Assembly: GCA_040755395.1 (NCBI GenBank)
Contig: JBFMAX010000001.1
Location: forward strand, 698,826-762,825
From: Nitrospirota bacterium
GTDB taxonomy: Bacteria; Nitrospirota; Nitrospiria; Nitrospirales; Nitrospiraceae
Reading direction: 5' to 3'
Length of the DNA: 64,000 nt
Shown here: positions 54,931 to 63,993 of the stretch, piece by piece
Layout: each line of letters opens with the position of its first letter
How positions within the stretch are numbered: the first letter of the stretch is position 1
Program-made: the position numbers and the translations under genes
Notes under the pieces: model-generated
Databases searched by the model: none
Seen by the model: only the letters and a program-made list of their open reading frames with translations
Told to the model about the DNA's origin: nothing

Positions 54931-55539
54931 CTAGGACGCGAGCACCTTGGCCAGAATGCCCGTCCGGGTCGTGGCGCCGGTCTTCCGCATGATGCGTTTG
55001 ATGTGCTCTTTGACCGTTTGCTCGGTGATGTGGAGAGCGTTGGCGATCTCTTTATTGGTGAAGCCTTTGACAAGCTCCTTCACGACGGCTAGCTCGCGGT
55101 CCGTCAACTGGTACCGCTCCTTGGCTCGATCGATCCCTCGCTGGTCTTGTCGCCCCAGCGGCTCGATCGTCACCACGATCCTCGCCCGCTGCAGGCCGCC
55201 GGCGTCGGGCAATCCGAATCCCTTCAGGAGGATGGTGCGGTCGGATGACGCGGCGATCCGCGTGACTTGAAACTGCTCCCAGTCTTTGGCCTCGGTCCTT
55301 ACCTTTAGCGTGTCGATGACCTCCCGGCACACCTCGGTGAGCGCCTCGGGCAAGACGCCGTGGGCGGCAGACGGCGATCCTTTCCCCTGCCCGGTCGCAT
55401 TGATTTGCCGGGTCAGCTCGTGGGCCGCCTGGTTCATATACAGAAGCTGCATCGCCGCCGACAGCACGACAATTCCCGGCCCGGTCCGAAGATCCGCGAG
55501 GTTGAACGCCGATTCGTCGCTCGTCCCCTGAGTCTCCAT
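54931..55539 (-). CDS. LuxR-family transcriptional regulator with N-terminal sensor-like domain
   Basis: About 202 residues. The C-terminal LuxR/GerE helix-turn-helix is complete: YQLTDRELAVVKELVKGFTN, then KEIANALHITEQTVKEHIKR and IMRKTGATTRTGILAKVL. The N-terminal 120 residues start with GPGIVVLSAAMQLLYMNQAA, the usual beginning of a PAS domain, so it probably senses a ligand. It has no receiver aspartate. ATG 55539 has GAGGAA upstream. It lies 127 bases downstream of the AAA ATPase on the same strand, with a repeat in between. Confidence 0.85.
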   Translation of the reverse strand: METQGTSDESAFNLADLRTGPGIVVLSAAMQLLYMNQAAHELTRQINATGQGKGSPSAAHGVLPEALTEVCREVIDTLKVRTEAKDWEQFQVTRIAASSDRTILLKGFGLPDAGGLQRARIVVTIEPLGRQDQRGIDRAKERYQLTDRELAVVKELVKGFTNKEIANALHITEQTVKEHIKRIMRKTGATTRTGILAKVLAS

Positions 55540-55628
55540 CGTTTCCTCACTTTTCACAACTAGCCGTTCTAGCCTCATGAGTCAGAAATCCACGACAAGA
55601 CCCACAGGCGCTGAAGACCTGTTTGCAT

Positions 55629-55665: not shown

Positions 55666-57804
55666 CTATTCGCATGCGGAGAAGCCCGCAATGCGGCTCA
55701 TGGTTCCGTGTTTCGCTCGGCACTCGGCTTCGAGCGCGGCGAGCAGCTCCTCGGCATCGTAACGTTTCCCATACAATCGAGCTTGCCGCAGCACCGTGTT
55801 GAAGTCTCCCGGCGTCAACGTGTTCAATCGAGCCAGCCGCTCTTGCACGGACGTGGACACCACCACTCCGTCACCTGGTTCCCGCGTCGCAACCACGGCG
55901 AGCACGAAGAGCGTGAATGCCTGTTCCGCCGTCAGGTAGTCGAACCAAATCTTGAGGTCGAACCGCCGCAGGACGGCCGGGTCGAGGTCTTCCATCAAGT
56001 TGGTGGCGCAGAAGCAGACCCCTTCGAACGCTTCCATCTGCTTCAAGAGTTCATTGACCTGGGTCACTTCCCAGGAGCGATGCGCGCCGCGCCGATCACG
56101 GAGGAAACTGTCGGCCTCATCGAGCAGGATCACGGCGCCTTCGTCGATGGCCTCCCGGAACAGTCGGGCCAGATTCTGCTCGGTCCCGCCGAGCCAGCAA
56201 CTCAGCAAGTCCGACGCGCGGCGCTCGAGAAGCGGACGGTCAAGCCGGTCGGCCACGTAATGGGCGAACGCGGTTTTCCCGCTGCCGGGCGGACCGTAGA
56301 GACACAGCCGCCCGGCCGGGCGTGTCTTGAGTCCCTCCACCACAGCCTGCAGATCATGGCTGGCATTGAGGTGCTCGATGCTGTACCTGAGGAGCGGCTC
56401 AGACCCGGCGCGTTCGAGCGGCGCACAGCCGAGCACTTCGAGACTCTGTCGGATCGCCCGCTCGACCAGTGTTTCCACCATGGCCGGATCGTCGCCGCCG
56501 GCCAAGCTCGCGACTTTGGACGCCTGGGCGATCAGCGCCGGGGTGAGGTTCGGATGGCCGGCCATCCGGTCGATCCACTCGGGCCGAACCGGCAGATGTT
56601 GGAGGTTGCCCGCCAACACCGCGCGGCGCACGGATCGCGGCGGGGTCCGCACCTCCAGCGCATAAGCGAACCGCCGCCGAAACGCCGGATCGATCTGCCC
56701 CACTTCGTTGCAGATCCAGAAGGCCGGGCGCGGATTGGTCTCCAAGGCGGCATTGGTCCACGCCTTCTGGAGCCCGGATCTCCGGTTCCAGCCGAACAGT
56801 GGGAACTCCCGGTCGGAAAAGACATCCTCCACTTCATCGAAGAGGACGAGGCTTCGGTCGTTGCGCGCCAACAATTTCTGCGTGAAGAGATACGACCGGA
56901 ACCGGAACTGTTCGAGTTCTCTGTGTTCGCACTCGTACCCGACCAGAAAGAGCGTGGCGCCCAGGGACGCCGCCAGCGCCTTGACGAGTTCCGTTTTGCC
57001 CGTACCGCTCTCGCCGTACACCAGGATATTGATCCCCGTGGTCGGATGCTCGAGGACATGGCCCAGCAAGCGGCGCAGCACCTGGATGTGGTCGCGGAGA
57101 TGAGGAAATTCATCCAGCCGATGGCGCGGTGCCGGCGTCACCTCGCAATAGCGACGAAACGGCGCCGCTCCGCCCTCCGGATCTTCCAGCAGGCCGGTAT
57201 CCAATCCGTCCAACAGATCCAGCATCTCCGCGACGTCGGGTTCCGTCCGATCCACGCGCAGAAGACCAGCCGAGCACAGTGCGCTGTCCCTGCGCAGCAT
57301 CCGGTCAATTTCCTTGCGCTCCCGTCCGAGCACAATCGCCAGCACCTCGTCCAACGACCACACGCTCTGCTCCCGCGTCGCTTCCATAAAGTCGCTGAGC
57401 ACCGGACAGGCTCGCGCCAAAACCGTGAAGGCAAGCAGTTCCTGCTCGGCTTCAGACAGTCCGACCACTTCAGCGAGCTGATGAAGCTGCCGCGCCAGAG
57501 GCGTCTCCCGCGACATCGAATGCCGTTCCACCCTTGCAAGTCGACGCTGAATCGCCTGCCTCGCTTCAGCGCCGGACGGGTTCCTCAGATAGGCCGGCGG
57601 CAGACCAGTGAGCTTTTGTAGTGCGGATTCCAGCTCGCACTCGATCTCCATGCGACGACCCGCGGCCAGCAGACGCAGAATCCATCGGGTAACCAGATCC
57701 CGGTACTCCTTTGGGACCGGCGGAGCAGATGTGCTCCTCGATCGGCGGAGTCGTTTGAGCAGACGATGCGGCGGCGTGATGGCTCCGGATGTCCAATGGC
57801 GCAT
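55666..57804 (-). CDS. Tandem AAA+ ATPase
   Basis: A 712-residue protein with two AAA+ modules. The N-terminal helical region (about 1-230) is unrecognised. Module 1: Walker A GESGTGKTELV near residue 268, Walker B LVLFDEVEDVF near 321 and a FRRRFAYALEV arginine region. Module 2: Walker A GPPGSGKTAFAHYVADRL near 505, Walker B VILLDEADSFLRD near 558, and sensor/Arg finger FCATNLMEDLDPAVLRRFD. Both modules look active, so it is probably a hexameric remodeller. It is divergent from a WYL regulator, 133 bases apart, which suggests a regulated stress or defence function. The partner is unknown. Confidence 0.85.
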   Translation of the reverse strand: MRHWTSGAITPPHRLLKRLRRSRSTSAPPVPKEYRDLVTRWILRLLAAGRRMEIECELESALQKLTGLPPAYLRNPSGAEARQAIQRRLARVERHSMSRETPLARQLHQLAEVVGLSEAEQELLAFTVLARACPVLSDFMEATREQSVWSLDEVLAIVLGRERKEIDRMLRRDSALCSAGLLRVDRTEPDVAEMLDLLDGLDTGLLEDPEGGAAPFRRYCEVTPAPRHRLDEFPHLRDHIQVLRRLLGHVLEHPTTGINILVYGESGTGKTELVKALAASLGATLFLVGYECEHRELEQFRFRSYLFTQKLLARNDRSLVLFDEVEDVFSDREFPLFGWNRRSGLQKAWTNAALETNPRPAFWICNEVGQIDPAFRRRFAYALEVRTPPRSVRRAVLAGNLQHLPVRPEWIDRMAGHPNLTPALIAQASKVASLAGGDDPAMVETLVERAIRQSLEVLGCAPLERAGSEPLLRYSIEHLNASHDLQAVVEGLKTRPAGRLCLYGPPGSGKTAFAHYVADRLDRPLLERRASDLLSCWLGGTEQNLARLFREAIDEGAVILLDEADSFLRDRRGAHRSWEVTQVNELLKQMEAFEGVCFCATNLMEDLDPAVLRRFDLKIWFDYLTAEQAFTLFVLAVVATREPGDGVVVSTSVQERLARLNTLTPGDFNTVLRQARLYGKRYDAEELLAALEAECRAKHGTMSRIAGFSACE

Positions 57805-57937
57805 GCGACGACCTCCTCGTGATGATCCCCCTGCGCGAAAACGTGTTCGTGCTTGTCAAACTAGCCGATTCACGCGACAACATAGGTCGTTGAGCAGCCA
57901 TTTTCCCCGCCGGAATGGATTGCGCCATGAGGATGCG

Positions 57938-58987
57938 ATGAGGCGTGCCACCGAGACGGTGTTTCGGCAGTGGGTCATGCTCCGCCTGATTCCGCGATCG
58001 CCTCGGTCGATCGGAACACGGGAGATCAAGGATCGTTTGGAGGAGGAGGGCTTTGCGGTTGAGTTACGGACCATCCAGCGCGATTTGGCCAAACTCTCGG
58101 GAATTTTCCCGCTGACCGGCGAGGCCGACGGCAAGGCCTTACGATGGGCGTGGATGGCCGAGGCTGCTTCCTTGGACATCCCCGGTATGGACCCGCCGAC
58201 GGCTGTGGCTTTTCAGTTGGCGGCGGTTTACTTGGCTCCCCTCCTGCCGCCCACAACATTGCGCCATCTGACACCGTACTTCCAACGGGCCCGGGACGTG
58301 CTCGCGAGCACACGCGGGGGCAGCATCAGCTTATGGCCGGACAAGGTCTGCGCCATTGTGCGCGGGCCGGTCCTTCAGGCGCCAGCGATCGTCCCATCGG
58401 TCCAGGAGACCGTCTATCAAGCCCTGCTGACCGATCGGCAACTGATCGTCGCCTATCGCAACAAGGCCGCCGACCGGCCGAAGACTTACCCGGTCCATCC
58501 GCTCGGACTCGTATTCCGGGATGGAGTGGTGTATCTGGTCTGCACCGTGAAACGGTATGCAGACATCCGGCACCTGGCCTTGCACCGGATGACCTCGGCG
58601 ATGCTGCGCGATGAGCCGACCCGTCGCCCGGAGGGTTTTTCGCTGAGCCGCTACGTGAAGGACGAGCAGTTCTTTTCCTATCCCCTCCAGGGGCGGCCCA
58701 TTCACGCCGAACTCCTGTTCGAGCGGGGTGCGGCGCTGCACTTGGCCGAACGGCCCCTATCACGAGATCAGCGGCTCATACCCCAAAAAGACGGGCGGGT
58801 CCTGCTGCGGGCGACCGTGCGCGACACGTTGGAACTCCGGTGGTGGGTGCAGGGATTCGGCGATCAGGTCGAGGTCATTGCGCCGGCGTCCTGGCGAACG
58901 GAGTTCGCCGCCATGGTCCATCGACTCGCGAACCGGTACGGCAACAGCCCTCAGACCAGCAAAACGGCAAGGCGCAGGTCTGCCTGA
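57938..58987 (+). CDS. WYL-domain transcriptional regulator
   Basis: A 349-residue regulator. The N-terminal winged helix (FRQWVMLRLIPRSPRSIGTR, then RLEEEGFAVELRTIQRDLAKL) precedes the WYL domain (about 140-250) with KTYPVHPLGLVFRDGVVYLV, where the usual W-Y-L triad reads V-V-Y-L. A WCX-like C-terminal extension follows (VRDTLELRWWVQGFGDQVEV). WYL proteins bind nucleic-acid ligands and control defence or DNA-damage genes. ATG 57938 has GAGG upstream; longer frames run into the divergent ATPase gene and are rejected. Probably controls the AAA ATPase, itself, or the RM locus downstream. Confidence 0.88.
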   Translation: MRRATETVFRQWVMLRLIPRSPRSIGTREIKDRLEEEGFAVELRTIQRDLAKLSGIFPLTGEADGKALRWAWMAEAASLDIPGMDPPTAVAFQLAAVYLAPLLPPTTLRHLTPYFQRARDVLASTRGGSISLWPDKVCAIVRGPVLQAPAIVPSVQETVYQALLTDRQLIVAYRNKAADRPKTYPVHPLGLVFRDGVVYLVCTVKRYADIRHLALHRMTSAMLRDEPTRRPEGFSLSRYVKDEQFFSYPLQGRPIHAELLFERGAALHLAERPLSRDQRLIPQKDGRVLLRATVRDTLELRWWVQGFGDQVEVIAPASWRTEFAAMVHRLANRYGNSPQTSKTARRRSA

Positions 58988-59139: not shown

Positions 59140-61174
59140 ATGAACAACTTCGGCGAGAAAGTCAGTTTCATCTGGGGTGTGGCGGATCTGATCCGTGACA
59201 CGTTCAAGCGCGGTACGTATCAGGACGTGATTCTGCCGTTCACGGTGCTCCGGCGCATTGATTGCGTGCTGGCACCGACCAAAGACAAGGTGCTGGAGGA
59301 GAATACCAACTAAAGATCAAGAAGCTGGAGAATCCGGCGCCGCTCCTCTGTAAAGTCTCCGGCTACGCCTTCTACAATACCTCCCGCTACGACATCGACA
59401 AGCTGCTGGCCGATGCGCCGAATCTCGCCGCCAATCTCCGAAACTACATCAACGGCTTCTCCCCGAACATGAAAGAGGTATTGGAGAAGTTCGATTTCGA
59501 CAACACGATCAAGAAGCTCGACGAGGCCGGGCTCCTGTTCCAGGTGACCGAGCGGTTCAAGACCATCGATCTGCATCCTGACAAGGTCTCGAACCATGAG
59601 ATGGGCTACATCTTCGAAGAGCTGATCCGGGAGTTCAACGAAGCCCTCGACGAAAATCCCGGCGAACACTTCACGCCGCGCGAAGTCATCCGGCTCATGG
59701 TGAATCTCCTCTTGGCTCAGGACAAAGAGGCCCTCGCCAAAAACCACATCGTCCGCACCATCGCCGACCCCTGCTGCGGATCGGGCGGCATGCTCACCAT
59801 CGCGAAAGAGCGGATTCTGGAGATCAACCCGCATGCCGACGTGTACCTGTTCGGCCAGGAGGTCAATCCCGAAACCTGGGCGGTGTCCAAGTCGGACATG
59901 CTCATGACCAGCCCGGACGGGCGGGATGCCGAAAACATCGCCTTCGGCAGCGTGCTATCGAATGACAAGCATGCCGACAAACGGTTCGATTATCTCTTGG
60001 CCAATCCGCCGTACGGCAAGGACTGGAAGCGGGACCAGGAGGCGGTGGAAGCGGAACACGACCGTGGCTATGCCGGCCGCTTCGGAGCCGGGCTCCCGCG
60101 CATCAGCGATGGCCAATTGCTCTTTCTCCAGCACATGCTGAGCCGCATGAAAGACCAGAAAGACGGCGGCAGCCGCGTGGCCATCATCATGAACGGCTCC
60201 CCGCTGTTCACGGCGATGCCGGCAGCGGGGAAAGCGAAATCCGCCGCTGGATTCTGGAGAACGACTGACTGGAAGCCCTCGTTGCCATGTCGGAGCAGCT
60301 CTTCTACAACACGGGCATCGCGACCTATGTATGGGTCCTCACAAACAGGAAAGAGAAGAAGCGAAGAGGGAAAGTTTAGCTCATCAACGCTTCAAGCTTC
60401 CGGGTGCCCATGCGCAGAAGCTTGGGCGACAAGCGGCGAAAAATTTCGGCGGAGCAGATTCAGCAGATCACGGACCTGTTCACCGCCTTCAAAGAAGGGG
60501 AACGCTGCAAGATCCTCGACATAACCGACTTCGGCTACCGCAAGATCACCGTCGAGCGCCCGCTGCGACTCAACGTCCAGGTCAGTCCTGAACGCATGGC
60601 GAAACTGAAGGAACAAACGGCCTTCAAGAATTTGGCGGTCAGCAAGAAGAAGCAGGCGAAGGAGAAAGCCAAGGAGGAAGAGGAAGGCCGAAAGAAGCAA
60701 GAAGCCATCGTTGACATGCTGAAGATGCTTCCGTCTACCCTCTTCAAAGACCGAGCGCTGTTCATCGAAGAACTCGACAAGGTACAGGAAAAGGCTGACC
60801 TGAAGCTCACCAAGTCGCTGCGCGAGGCGATTCTGCACGCGCTGCCCGAACGCGACAAGACGGCCGAGATCTGCCGGGATCAGGACGGCAACCCGGAGCC
60901 CGACCCGGAACTTCGCGACACAGAAAACGTGCCGCTCAAAGAAGACATTCACGTCTACTTCGATCGGGAAGTGAAGCCGCATGTGCCGGACGCCTGGATC
61001 AATCGGGCCATCGTGGACCACAAGGACGGAAAGGTCGGCAAGGTCGGCTACGAGATCAACTTCAACCGCTATTTTTACAAGTACGAGCCGCCGAGGCCGT
61101 TGGAGGCCATCGAGGCGGACATCAAAGCCATCGAGCCGGACATCGTGAAGATGTTGCGCGAGGTCACAGAATAG
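59140..61174 (+). pseudogene. hsdM: Type I restriction-modification methyltransferase HsdM, multiply disrupted
   Basis: Would be the N6-adenine methyltransferase subunit of a type I system, about 677 codons. The N-terminal part (MNNFGEKVSFIWGVADLIRD) ends at a stop at 59311 after a one-base shift. The frame then continues with LKIKKLENPAPLLCKVSGYA, SAM motif DPCCGSGGMLTIA and catalytic NPPY in LLANPPYGKDW. A second one-base shift lies near 60211, followed by in-frame TGA 60266 (replacing Trp/other) and TAG 60377, before the last 265 codons resume to 61174. Two frameshifts plus two nonsense codons mean no functional product unless the sequence has errors. Confidence 0.85.
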
Positions 61175-61247: not shown

Positions 61248-61487
61248 ATGGCACAGGTCCTTGTCCGAAATCTGGACGACAAAATCGTGGCGCGGCTCAA
61301 AAAGAGAGCCGCGCAGCGAGGCCGCTCGCTCCAGGCCGAAGTCAAACAGATTCTGGAAGACGCAGCAGCGGAGGCCGATCAAGCTGAAGTATGGAAGACG
61401 ATCGAGCAATTTCGCGAACGCATGAGGCGATCCGGCAGGACGTTCAGCGACAGCGCGGAGCTGATTCGTGAGGATCGCGACCAGTGA
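61248..61487 (+). CDS. vapB: VapB/FitA-type antitoxin
   Basis: A 79-residue ribbon-helix-helix antitoxin. It starts MAQVLVRNLDDKIVARLKKR (DNA-binding ribbon and helix), then RGRSLQAEVKQILEDAA. The C-terminal half would thread into the toxin active site. The strong GGAAGGAGG fixes ATG 61248. Its stop overlaps the vapC GTG. It lies between broken hsdM and hsdS, an unusual place for a toxin-antitoxin pair. Confidence 0.9.
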   Translation: MAQVLVRNLDDKIVARLKKRAAQRGRSLQAEVKQILEDAAAEADQAEVWKTIEQFRERMRRSGRTFSDSAELIREDRDQ

Positions 61488-61906
61488 ACGCGTGTGTCGT
61501 CGGTGCAAGCGTGGCGGTCAAATGGTTCCTGCCGGAGATTCATTGGGAGGCGGCCTGGCGCTTGCGGAACTCGGCAACCGCTCTCCATGCGCCGGCCTTT
61601 TTCGAGTTGGAATTCGGCAATGTCTTGTGCAAGAAGGTTCGACGAGGCGAGCTGTCACGGGAGGACGCGAACCTCATGCTGGAGCAACTCGATCGGGTGA
61701 CGATCGTCCGCCATCCTGATGCGCGGCTCGTTCGGGCGGCGTTAGCCCTCGCGCATCAATTGCGCCAGAGCCTGTACGACTGCTTGTACTTGGCGTTGGC
61801 GCTGCAACTCAAAACGCAACTGGTTACGGCCGACCAACGGTTCCACCAAGCCCTCCGAAACACCACCCTGGCATCCTGTCTGCTCTGGATCGAGCAGCTA
61901 CCGTGA
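61484..61906 (+). CDS. vapC: VapC-type PIN-domain toxin lacking the first catalytic Asp
   Basis: A 140-residue PIN-domain ribonuclease relative. Standard VapC begins V-V-D-A-S-V-A-V-K-W; here it reads VVGASVAVKWFLPE, with residue 7 Gly (codon GGT) in place of Asp (GAT would be one base away). The Glu in FFELEFGNVL and the acidic residues in YDCLYLALAL and VTADQRF are kept. Loss of this metal ligand usually abolishes activity, so the toxin is probably dead while fold and antitoxin binding may remain. GTG 61484 overlaps the vapB stop. Confidence 0.88.
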   Translation: MNACVVGASVAVKWFLPEIHWEAAWRLRNSATALHAPAFFELEFGNVLCKKVRRGELSREDANLMLEQLDRVTIVRHPDARLVRAALALAHQLRQSLYDCLYLALALQLKTQLVTADQRFHQALRNTTLASCLLWIEQLP

Positions 61907-63332: not shown

Positions 63333-63382
63333 GTGGATAAAAACGTTTGCATTTATTCATAAGTGCATGCATATTTATCCAC
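63333..63382. promoter_or_regulatory. Inverted repeat at the AbiEi promoter (candidate operator)
   Basis: GTGGATAAA (63333-63341) and TTTATCCAC (63374-63382) form a perfect 9-bp inverted repeat around an AT-rich centre. TTGCAT (63347) and CATATT (63370), 17 bases apart, could be -35/-10 elements inside it. AbiEi proteins are known to bind inverted repeats at their own promoters. Confidence 0.5.
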
Positions 63383-63993
63383 CCATGGGGCTCATCCAAT
63401 CAGAACGACAAGCGGAAACCATCTTCAGACGCCATCGAGGGGTGCTTAGAACCTCTCATGCCCTGAAACTGGGGATCCATCCCCGTATCCTTTATCGGCT
63501 TCGCGATTCAGGACGGCTTGTCACTGTGACTCGTGGCGTGTACCGGCTGGCTGATCTCCCGGAGCCGAGCCAGCCTGACCTCCTCGTCGTAGCGAGCCGC
63601 ATCCCTCAAGCAGTTATTTGTCTGATCTCAGCCCTTTCGTTTCACGGCATCACCACCCAGATTCCTCATGAAGTCCACATTGCGCTGCCCCGGCGGACCC
63701 GTTATCCGCGGCTCGACCACCCACCCACTCGTGTGTTCCTCATGACCGAGGCCGCGTACTCAGAAGGGATCGAGAAGCATTCCATTGAGGGTATGCAGAT
63801 ACGGGTCTATAGCCCGGAAAAGAGCGTCGTGGATTGCTTCAAGTTTCGCAACAAGATCGGGATGGACGTGGCCGTTGAAGCGCTGCGACTCGCCCGGGAA
63901 CGTAAGCGGGTGACTCCTCAAGCGCTTCTTCACTATGCCCGGCTGTGCCGAGTCGAGCGCGTGATCCGTCCTTATCTGGAGGCCATGACATGA
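63367..63993 (+). CDS. abiEi: AbiEi-type antitoxin / transcriptional regulator
   Basis: A 208-residue protein. The N-terminal winged helix (GVLRTSHALKLGIHPRILYR, then LRDSGRLVTVTRGVYRLAD) matches the AbiEi antitoxin family. The C-terminal domain contains LISALSFHGITTQIP, VHIALPRRTRYPRL and MQIRVYSPEKSVVDCFKFRN, also typical. AbiEi represses the abiE operon and neutralises the AbiEii nucleotidyltransferase (type IV system). ATG 63367 or ATG 63385 may be the start; the second fits a promoter overlapping the inverted repeat better. The next gene starts with a 4-base overlap. Confidence 0.88.
   Translation: MHIYPPMGLIQSERQAETIFRRHRGVLRTSHALKLGIHPRILYRLRDSGRLVTVTRGVYRLADLPEPSQPDLLVVASRIPQAVICLISALSFHGITTQIPHEVHIALPRRTRYPRLDHPPTRVFLMTEAAYSEGIEKHSIEGMQIRVYSPEKSVVDCFKFRNKIGMDVAVEALRLARERKRVTPQALLHYARLCRVERVIRPYLEAMT

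Follow-up and report, generated by a model that had tools for sequence, protein, structure and literature searches.

A tandem AAA+ ATPase and its divergent WYL regulator in Nitrospirota: a candidate inducible defence or damage-response module

A Nitrospirota bacterium of the family Nitrospiraceae (assembly GCA_040755395.1) encodes, within 64,000 nt of contig JBFMAX010000001.1 (positions 698,826 to 762,825; hereafter the window), an ATPase with two AAA+ modules whose gene faces that of a WYL-domain regulator. What does such a pair do, and what would switch it on? The ATPase has 712 residues and is encoded on the minus strand (55666..57804; open reading frame (ORF), Pfam, alignment and AlphaFold2 (AF2) model). 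The regulator has 349 residues and is encoded on the plus strand (57938..58987), with WYL and WCX domains assigned by Pfam and profile comparison and a winged helix-turn-helix (HTH) predicted from the alignment. The genes are divergent and their ATG codons are separated by 133 bp, an arrangement that the first-pass annotation of this DNA had described and that the two ORFs and the WYL/WCX matches bear out. We propose that a p97-like tandem AAA+ unfoldase, turned on by a DriD-like WYL switch, acts in an inducible defence or damage-response circuit, a reading to which we assign a probability of about 0.5.

Linkage and distribution of the two genes

The pair is conserved in Nitrospira-family relatives at 47–60% protein identity, a stronger argument for selection than the one first offered, that the genes are intact and therefore selected, which is weak alone. 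In five family relatives (L006, L008, L012, L013 and L014) the WYL gene lies upstream and divergent; in a more distant family copy (L011) it lies upstream on the same strand. Among genome contigs, at least 557 relatives of the ATPase were matched, and the best 80 loci were retained for analysis. In a quick tree with support from the Shimodaira–Hasegawa-like approximate likelihood-ratio test (SH-aLRT) only, the window groups with three family copies (support 99), and 20 loci (L056–L091) form one short-branched beta-proteobacterial clade, hereafter the beta clade. Outside this clade, a related WYL gene, detected with a profile made from the WYL neighbours, lies within 2 kb of the ATPase in 25 of 60 loci and within 8 kb in 33 of 60; within the clade none of the 20 loci has one nearby. 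Many contigs are short, and where both flanks extend to 7 kb or more the WYL gene is found within 8 kb in 14 of 22 loci. In GC-rich loci, ORFs were taken simply as the longest open frames, a crude procedure by which neighbours can be missed. The fetched stretch contains a WYL profile match in 14 of 16 plasmid loci.

Of the 26 placements no more than 2 kb away, 13 are upstream divergent, 8 downstream on the same strand, 3 upstream on the same strand and 2 downstream on the opposite strand. These four orientations therefore suggest that the linkage was repeatedly made, or kept through rearrangement. By sequence comparison, ATPase and WYL gene are a conserved unit. That two unrelated genes are neighbours here by chance is already disfavoured because the linkage is conserved: adjacent genes are common and the candidate operator in the window is degenerate, but the divergent upstream WYL gene of five family relatives, the same-strand gene of L011 and the recurrent linkage in other phyla make coincidence highly improbable.

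A threshold of E 1e-30 finds the ATPase in 6 of 175 family genomes; it is also present in 14 of 395 genomes of the phylum, the window's own genome included in both counts, and in 25 of 369 gammaproteobacteria, the chosen centre genome (G175) included. The 4.1-Mb genome of the window encodes a single full-length ATPase and contains two WYL matches in total. In a 'distant' mode search of E. coli, the DNA of the Pantoea ATPase was unmatched. Homologues were also matched in 20 plasmid records and, in a viral scan, in 12 loci, among them contigs of 345–561 kb. Five of six contigs of this size (L195, L196, L198, L199, L201 and L202) match only about residues 229–707, the AAA part, and none of the six has a WYL match near the homologue.

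These plasmid and viral occurrences would suit a role in mobile-element maintenance or counter-defence, for example the dismantling of host complexes that attack plasmids or phages. So would a 306-bit match of residues 79–704 to the phage protein family PHROG 10401, which is annotated only as ATPase, and a phage-type integrase near the Thiomicrorhabdus island described below. The at least 557 relatives on genome contigs, compared with 12 viral loci in collections and patterns that differ, argue otherwise. So does the viral set itself, in which a WYL match occurs at one of the 12 loci and the palindromic box introduced below (two mismatches or fewer) at one, far from the ATPase gene. We consider such a role quite improbable.

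Architecture of the ATPase

The Pfam AAA family (PF00004) matches the ATPase in two stretches with 131.1 bits, against a cut-off of 21.2. Two alignments were made, A1 with the window and 61 of 79 usable loci and A2 with the window and 52; L013 has masked residues and was excluded from both, and was retained in A3 (its WYL) and in the tree. The Walker A lysines, the Walker B D-E pairs, the sensor-1 Asn and the RRF arginines of both modules are invariant in the 62 aligned homologues, which upholds the earlier description of two intact AAA+ modules.

The first module comprises approximately residues 227–456 (56437..57126, minus strand; boundaries from the alignment and the AF2 model), with Walker A at 263–270, Walker B at 319–323, sensor-1 N365 and RRF at 376–378. 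The second comprises approximately residues 457–700 (55705..56436, minus strand; alignment and structural matches), with Walker A at 503–510, Walker B at 558–562, sensor-1 N601 and RRF at 612–614. It also contains the pore-loop residue W536, a position occupied by Y, W or F in 59 of the 62 homologues. In front of the modules, the AF2 model places a helical domain with a winged-helix-like end (residues 25–226; 57127..57732, minus strand).

The mean predicted local distance difference test (pLDDT) score of the model is 90, and its N-terminal 202 residues are likewise confident (pLDDT 92). The best solved structural matches are AAA+ proteins of the double-ring kind, Rix7, Cdc48, p97, NVL and archaeal VAT, as are the PDB sequence matches. 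Chains of p97, NVL and Rix7 align over 433–444 residues across both modules with VIA-align Z scores of 17.2 to 18.2; over the second module, where FtsH and Vps4 chains are also among the best matches, Z reaches 18.6. The N-terminal domain had been called unrecognised, and this holds: for none of the best 25 of 43 Pfam families does the best stretch fall within the N-terminal 236 residues, and comparison with solved structures gives a best Foldseek E of 0.77 and, with a DNA-binding domain, a best Z of 5.3, values too weak for a fold to be assigned.

The ATPase thus resembles p97, Cdc48, NVL and Rix7 in its two complete AAA+ modules, in the aromatic pore loop of the second ring and in its top structural matches. 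It differs from them in an N-terminal domain without a convincing solved match, in being bacterial, sporadic and WYL-linked, and in its low identity (~18–25%). The cut-off of the CDC48 family (TIGR01243) is not reached, at 80.4 bits against 802.65. Among the best 25 of 27 PADLOC 2023 matches, IetA scores highest (123 bits, best stretch 490–637 of 712), and no system model covers most of the ATPase. Membership in IetA was rejected, since the ATPase scores 117.4 bits with NCBIfam NF042959, whose curated cut-off is 510; IetA models, at 262–395 positions, are too short for two modules, and, unlike IetA, the ATPase has no protease among its scanned window neighbours. Because of its fold and its pore loop, we infer that the ATPase would form a hexameric double ring capable of ATP-driven threading.

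The WYL regulator and the palindromic box

In the regulator, the Pfam WYL and WCX families score 54.9 bits (cut-off 21.8) and 58.7 bits (cut-off 23.9). The probable recognition helix contains the motif RTIQRDL (58067..58087, plus strand), in which R44, R48 and L50 are invariant among 19 aligned WYL proteins. The WYL domain, the presumed ligand sensor (58406..58600, plus strand; Pfam and alignment), has LALHR where DriD has RLDR, and is followed by the WCX domain (58697..58930, plus strand; Pfam).

To which characterised WYL proteins is the regulator closest? A profile of the 19 linked WYL proteins, compared with the PDB, matches DriD (9pfq, 1.7e-17; 8tp8, 1.9e-17) and PafBC (2.2e-17); the best rows (7u02, 5.6e-18; 7tzv, 5.7e-18) align with the same letters as the DriD chains. 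The same profile matches BrxR and CapW in the range of 0.0027 to 0.45 (BrxR 7qfz, 0.0027, and 7t8k, 0.062; CapW 9c5g, 0.013). On this comparison the window WYL is nearer to DriD and PafBC than to BrxR and CapW. DriD of Caulobacter crescentus, which shares the wHTH-WYL-WCX order and with PafBC is the closest characterised WYL protein by profile, binds single-stranded DNA (ssDNA) and activates an operon divergent from driD (PMC12340889, excerpts). The products of that operon are an unknown protein and a TonB-dependent transporter; in the window, by contrast, the divergent gene encodes an AAA+ ATPase.

The divergent intergenic DNA of the Nitrospira relatives has ATGCGAC-N7-GTCGTAT-like palindromes in common, and a refined cross-phylum consensus box, TGCGACA-N5-TGTCGCA, lies upstream of the ATPase. 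In the discovery set (74 of the 80 loci, 6 with less than 300 bp upstream having been dropped), a box with two mismatches or fewer is present in 24 of 74 loci and in none of 740 dinucleotide shuffles. By tree label, these 24 loci belong to Nitrospirota, Pseudomonadota, Myxococcota, Thermodesulfobacteriota, Planctomycetota and Tharpellota. Because the consensus was drawn from this set, we tested independent sets. Of 29 gammaproteobacterial loci 25 entered (L155 and L169 overlap, and L167 is part of the L076 island); all 16 plasmid loci were used, as were 9 of 10 further loci from the phylum. The box occurs in 9 of 25 gammaproteobacterial loci (1 of 2500 shuffles), one of the nine, L167, coming from the island already seen, and in 7 of 16 plasmid loci (4 of 1600 shuffles). 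Control stretches 500 bp downstream contain it in 1 of 21 and 0 of 16 loci, respectively. G4 and C6 are invariant in a logo of 29 hand-picked sites with both strands counted. The box centre lies 52–64 bp before the WYL start in L013, L014, L033, L048 and the second WYL of L053, 56 bp in the window, and 9 to 97 bp elsewhere. Two more distant homologues (L177 and L178) have TACGTCCGAATCTGACGTA in common upstream, which resembles the didA site as placed in the printed probe.

The palindrome before the ATPase across phyla is new here. In listings and passages of open-access full texts, to which the search was confined, neither the ATPase-WYL pair nor this box in front of defence operons was described, and the matches listed for the box letters together with WYL are chance-like by title. 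The box has a precedent in DriD itself: the printed driD promoter probe contains TGCGACAGAAACGGTCGTA, two mismatches from our consensus, in which we place the site TGCGACA-N5-GGTCGTA (PMC12340889, excerpts). The didA and bapE sites, as we place them in the printed probes, have four mismatches.

The window WYL could instead be a repressor of the BrxR/CapW kind, which would keep a costly defence gene silent until a ligand derived from phage lifts this control. BrxR and CapW are likewise WYL regulators with a palindromic site at a defence locus. CapW represses by binding palindromes that overlap the –10 element and measure 19, 21 and 24 bp (PMC9122588, excerpts), BrxR also represses, and 48% of BrxR homologues co-locate with known defence systems (PMC9122601, excerpts). 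By eye, the box of L012 and L014 runs into a TATAGT hexamer. The sequence match to these proteins is weak, however, with the WYL profile far closer to DriD and PafBC, and the box resembles the DriD site and differs from the site in the Acinetobacter BrxR probe. BrxR-like repression was our first choice and was demoted because of the profile comparison and the DriD box; we now regard it as unlikely. By analogy with DriD, the window WYL likely has a DriD-like sign, activation, and a DriD-like box.

The candidate operator of the window itself is CGCGACA-ACATA-GGTCGTT (57873..57891, no strand assigned), placed by comparison with the consensus and the driD site. It shares the core ACGAC-N7-GTCGC with the three nearest relatives (72 of 100000 shuffles) and agrees with the driD promoter site at 12 of 14 positions, the sole place in 64 kb with two mismatches or fewer; shuffled versions of the 133-bp intergenic DNA contain such a match in 14 of 20000 cases. 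Both patterns were chosen after the window box had been seen. No sigma-70-like promoter was found between 57700 and 58000. A regulon in the own genome was set aside, as the counts, 7 against 4 in the control for the strict consensus and 11 against 5 for YGCGAC-N7-GTCGYW, do not yield one that can be trusted. Judged from sequence, the proposed wiring is well supported in the family and moderately in the window.

Genomic contexts and the proposed circuit

Thirteen genomes outside the beta clade contain 37 sites with at most one mismatch to the box, where the reversed control gives 8; for five genomes of the beta clade the corresponding numbers are 6 and 4. We viewed 16 of the 37 sites in newly fetched DNA; a further three, in genomes G178, G180 and G187, are the boxes of L071, L045 and L013. 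Since the viewed sites were chosen, mostly perfect ones, no rate can be drawn from them. In G182, the cas3 frame of a Cas3e-Cas8e-Cas7e operon (type I-E) has a perfect box 145 bp in front of it. In G181, jetA of a JetA-JetB-JetC set is preceded at ~150 bp by one box, and a second lies between the ATPase and WYL genes, beside a type I restriction-modification locus. In G185, a perfect box precedes a DUF2779-like gene, whose start resembles that of the L074 gene, and another precedes the ATPase gene. In Thiomicrorhabdus cannonii, all six sites with at most one mismatch fall within 37 kb of one contig, and three of the six lie by ATPase, WYL or BnzA genes. This island (L139–L141; contig C11, 8000–60000) contains two ATPase genes, the second split in two frames, two WYL genes, a BnzA homologue (374 bits) that starts 38 bp from a box, a type IIG restriction-modification gene, and a DUF3584 SMC gene adjoining a weak MksE match; the integrase lies ~4 kb past the last box.

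Plasmid copies were examined in 16 of the 20 records, 2 of the 16 being without annotation. Annotated neighbours include Sir2, a macro domain protein, ADP-ribosylglycohydrolase, HEPN, DUF2779, a TM0106 RecB-like nuclease, PD-(D/E)XK with UvrD helicase, RtcB, HipA, and a phospholipase D (PLD) protein with a helicase; one record has BREX PglZ and BrxD near the ATPase. The expected co-occurrence with defence islands is borne out to the extent that many homologues stand near defence-type genes, a list that has no control set of random plasmid genes. A recurrent module consists of ATPase, DUF2779, WYL, a 430-aa protein, a PLD-like protein and an SNF2-like helicase (Rhodoferax, L074); it lacks DUF2779 in Pantoea and is partial in L060, L064 and Desulfosarcina. 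The module families were scanned on cluster members in L074, L060 and L049. At the module loci L074, L096, L097, L060, L064 and L104, the 430-aa protein has no Pfam match and DUF2779 is often present. ADP-ribose conflict operons with WYL regulators are a described class (PMC9503650, excerpts); the excerpted section does not name an AAA+ ATPase.

Could the ATPase be a general unfoldase of DNA damage or proteotoxic stress, its presence in islands reflecting their damage-response wiring? DriD and PafBC are DNA-damage regulators (excerpts of PMC12340889 and PMC11804915). On one plasmid, the copy has RtcB and a Y-family polymerase with its UmuD-type subunit in the vicinity, and on another it adjoins Sir2. 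The beta clade keeps the ATPase among recurrent chromosomal neighbours: many of its 20 loci share neighbour clusters, in at least two settings, some members of which, read from sequence without a profile search, we take to be recQ, metH and phosphoenolpyruvate carboxykinase. Consistently housekeeping surroundings, which were to speak against a defence role, are approached only in part, through the recurrent chromosomal neighbours of this one clade (20 of 80 loci). There, the ATPase is kept without a related WYL within 8 kb or a box with two mismatches or fewer, and is perhaps domesticated. The missing WYL and box in that clade, together with the sporadic distribution, the plasmid and island locations, and the recurrent nucleases, helicases and, once, BREX nearby, speak against a general unfoldase, which we hold to be rather doubtful.

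Several observations weigh against a DriD-like switch in a defence or damage-response circuit. Same-length stretches elsewhere in the discovery loci reach two mismatches or fewer in 9 of 740 cases. Outside the beta clade, 30 of 54 tested loci have no box at this threshold (22 have none with three or fewer), nor do any of the nine more distant homologues from the phylum (0/9). The window box has four mismatches to the consensus and, because 19 such sites, itself included, occur in 64 kb, counts for nothing by the consensus yardstick alone; genome-wide, driD-like sites are at background (11, against 22 in the control). The DriD profile match spans WYL–WCX and does not cover the winged HTH. In the WYL pocket, H216 and R217 are present in 19 of 19 proteins and position 214 is Ala in 13 of 19 and Arg in none; because the RLDR arginines are not matched, we do not file the regulator as a DriD orthologue. 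Since LALHR replaces RLDR and ssDNA binding by PafBC needs two conserved WYL arginines (PMC11804915, excerpts), the ligand may differ from that of DriD. In L008, whose ATPase is close to that of L013, two separate frames match the WYL profile, so this WYL copy may be broken or misassembled. Finally, three of the six Thiomicrorhabdus boxes precede small unnamed proteins, two of which were scanned without a match, and no recognised defence gene is present at 5 of the 16 viewed sites (three at G186, one each at G177 and G185).

In the window, the pair stands beside a decaying restriction locus. The first-pass annotation held hsdM, hsdS, vapC and higB all to be broken. hsdM is, with an N-terminal piece bearing HsdM_N (59140–59310) and the methylase part in a different frame, and hsdS probably is, with a 107-aa piece without a Pfam match followed by a 351-aa ORF with two Methylase_S stretches. 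The vapC gene (61484–61906), in contrast, is a complete reading frame matched by the PIN profile at 3–116 of 120. At what we take to be the usual position of the first catalytic Asp, it reads Gly, so that this VapC may be inactive. The putative higB is a 62-aa ORF without a profile match that would confirm it. An AbiEi-type antitoxin gene lies at 63367–63993, and several toxin-antitoxin and restriction genes or remnants (AbiEi-type, HTH, FitA-like, PIN) lie between 53 and 64 kb. A LuxR-type gene (54931–55578, minus strand; ORF and Pfam) follows on the ATPase strand, as noted before. It is not supported as a third member of the unit, not being conserved with the pair: searched by BLAST against the ORF set of L001–L091, it gave two matches at E 1e-5, L001 being the window's own region. 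The idea of a stand-alone stress or defence device is supported in part, for the two genes as a conserved unit with sporadic homologues, many among defence-type genes, and not for LuxR as a partner.

How might the pair work? In the circuit that we favour, the DriD/PafBC-like WYL protein would bind the palindromic box in the intergenic DNA. Once its WYL domain is occupied by a nucleic-acid ligand arising from damage or infection (in DriD the ligand is ssDNA), the divergent ATPase gene would be switched on. The ATPase would assemble as a p97/Cdc48-like double ring, its N-terminal domain would select the target, and the second ring would pull this protein by the aromatic pore loop, unfolding it or stripping it from nucleic acid or a complex. 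Carried on mobile and island DNA, the pair would then act as an inducible module of defence or damage response, possibly with an anti-phage outcome. We consider such an inducible role most likely because the same box precedes nucleases and established defence operons elsewhere.

A broader reading, which we advance tentatively and as less than an even bet, is a cross-phylum regulon of one WYL subfamily and one DriD-type palindrome. Here ssDNA or a related nucleic-acid signal would turn a whole island on, with the p97-like unfoldase as its most recurrent effector and with CRISPR-Cas I-E, Wadjet, Bunzi, DUF2779 nucleases, PLD-SNF2 and ADP-ribose enzymes varying by island.

How defence islands are switched on is poorly known, and BrxR and CapW, the WYL regulators described for such islands, act as repressors whose ligands are unidentified in the excerpts cited. 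A box that stands before the ATPase in several phyla, and singly before unrelated defence operons, makes candidate regulons readable from DNA, and the DriD precedent suggests both a trigger, ssDNA, and a sign, activation. If the proposed circuit is true, bacteria would gain a p97-like, conflict-associated unfoldase with a substrate that can be found.

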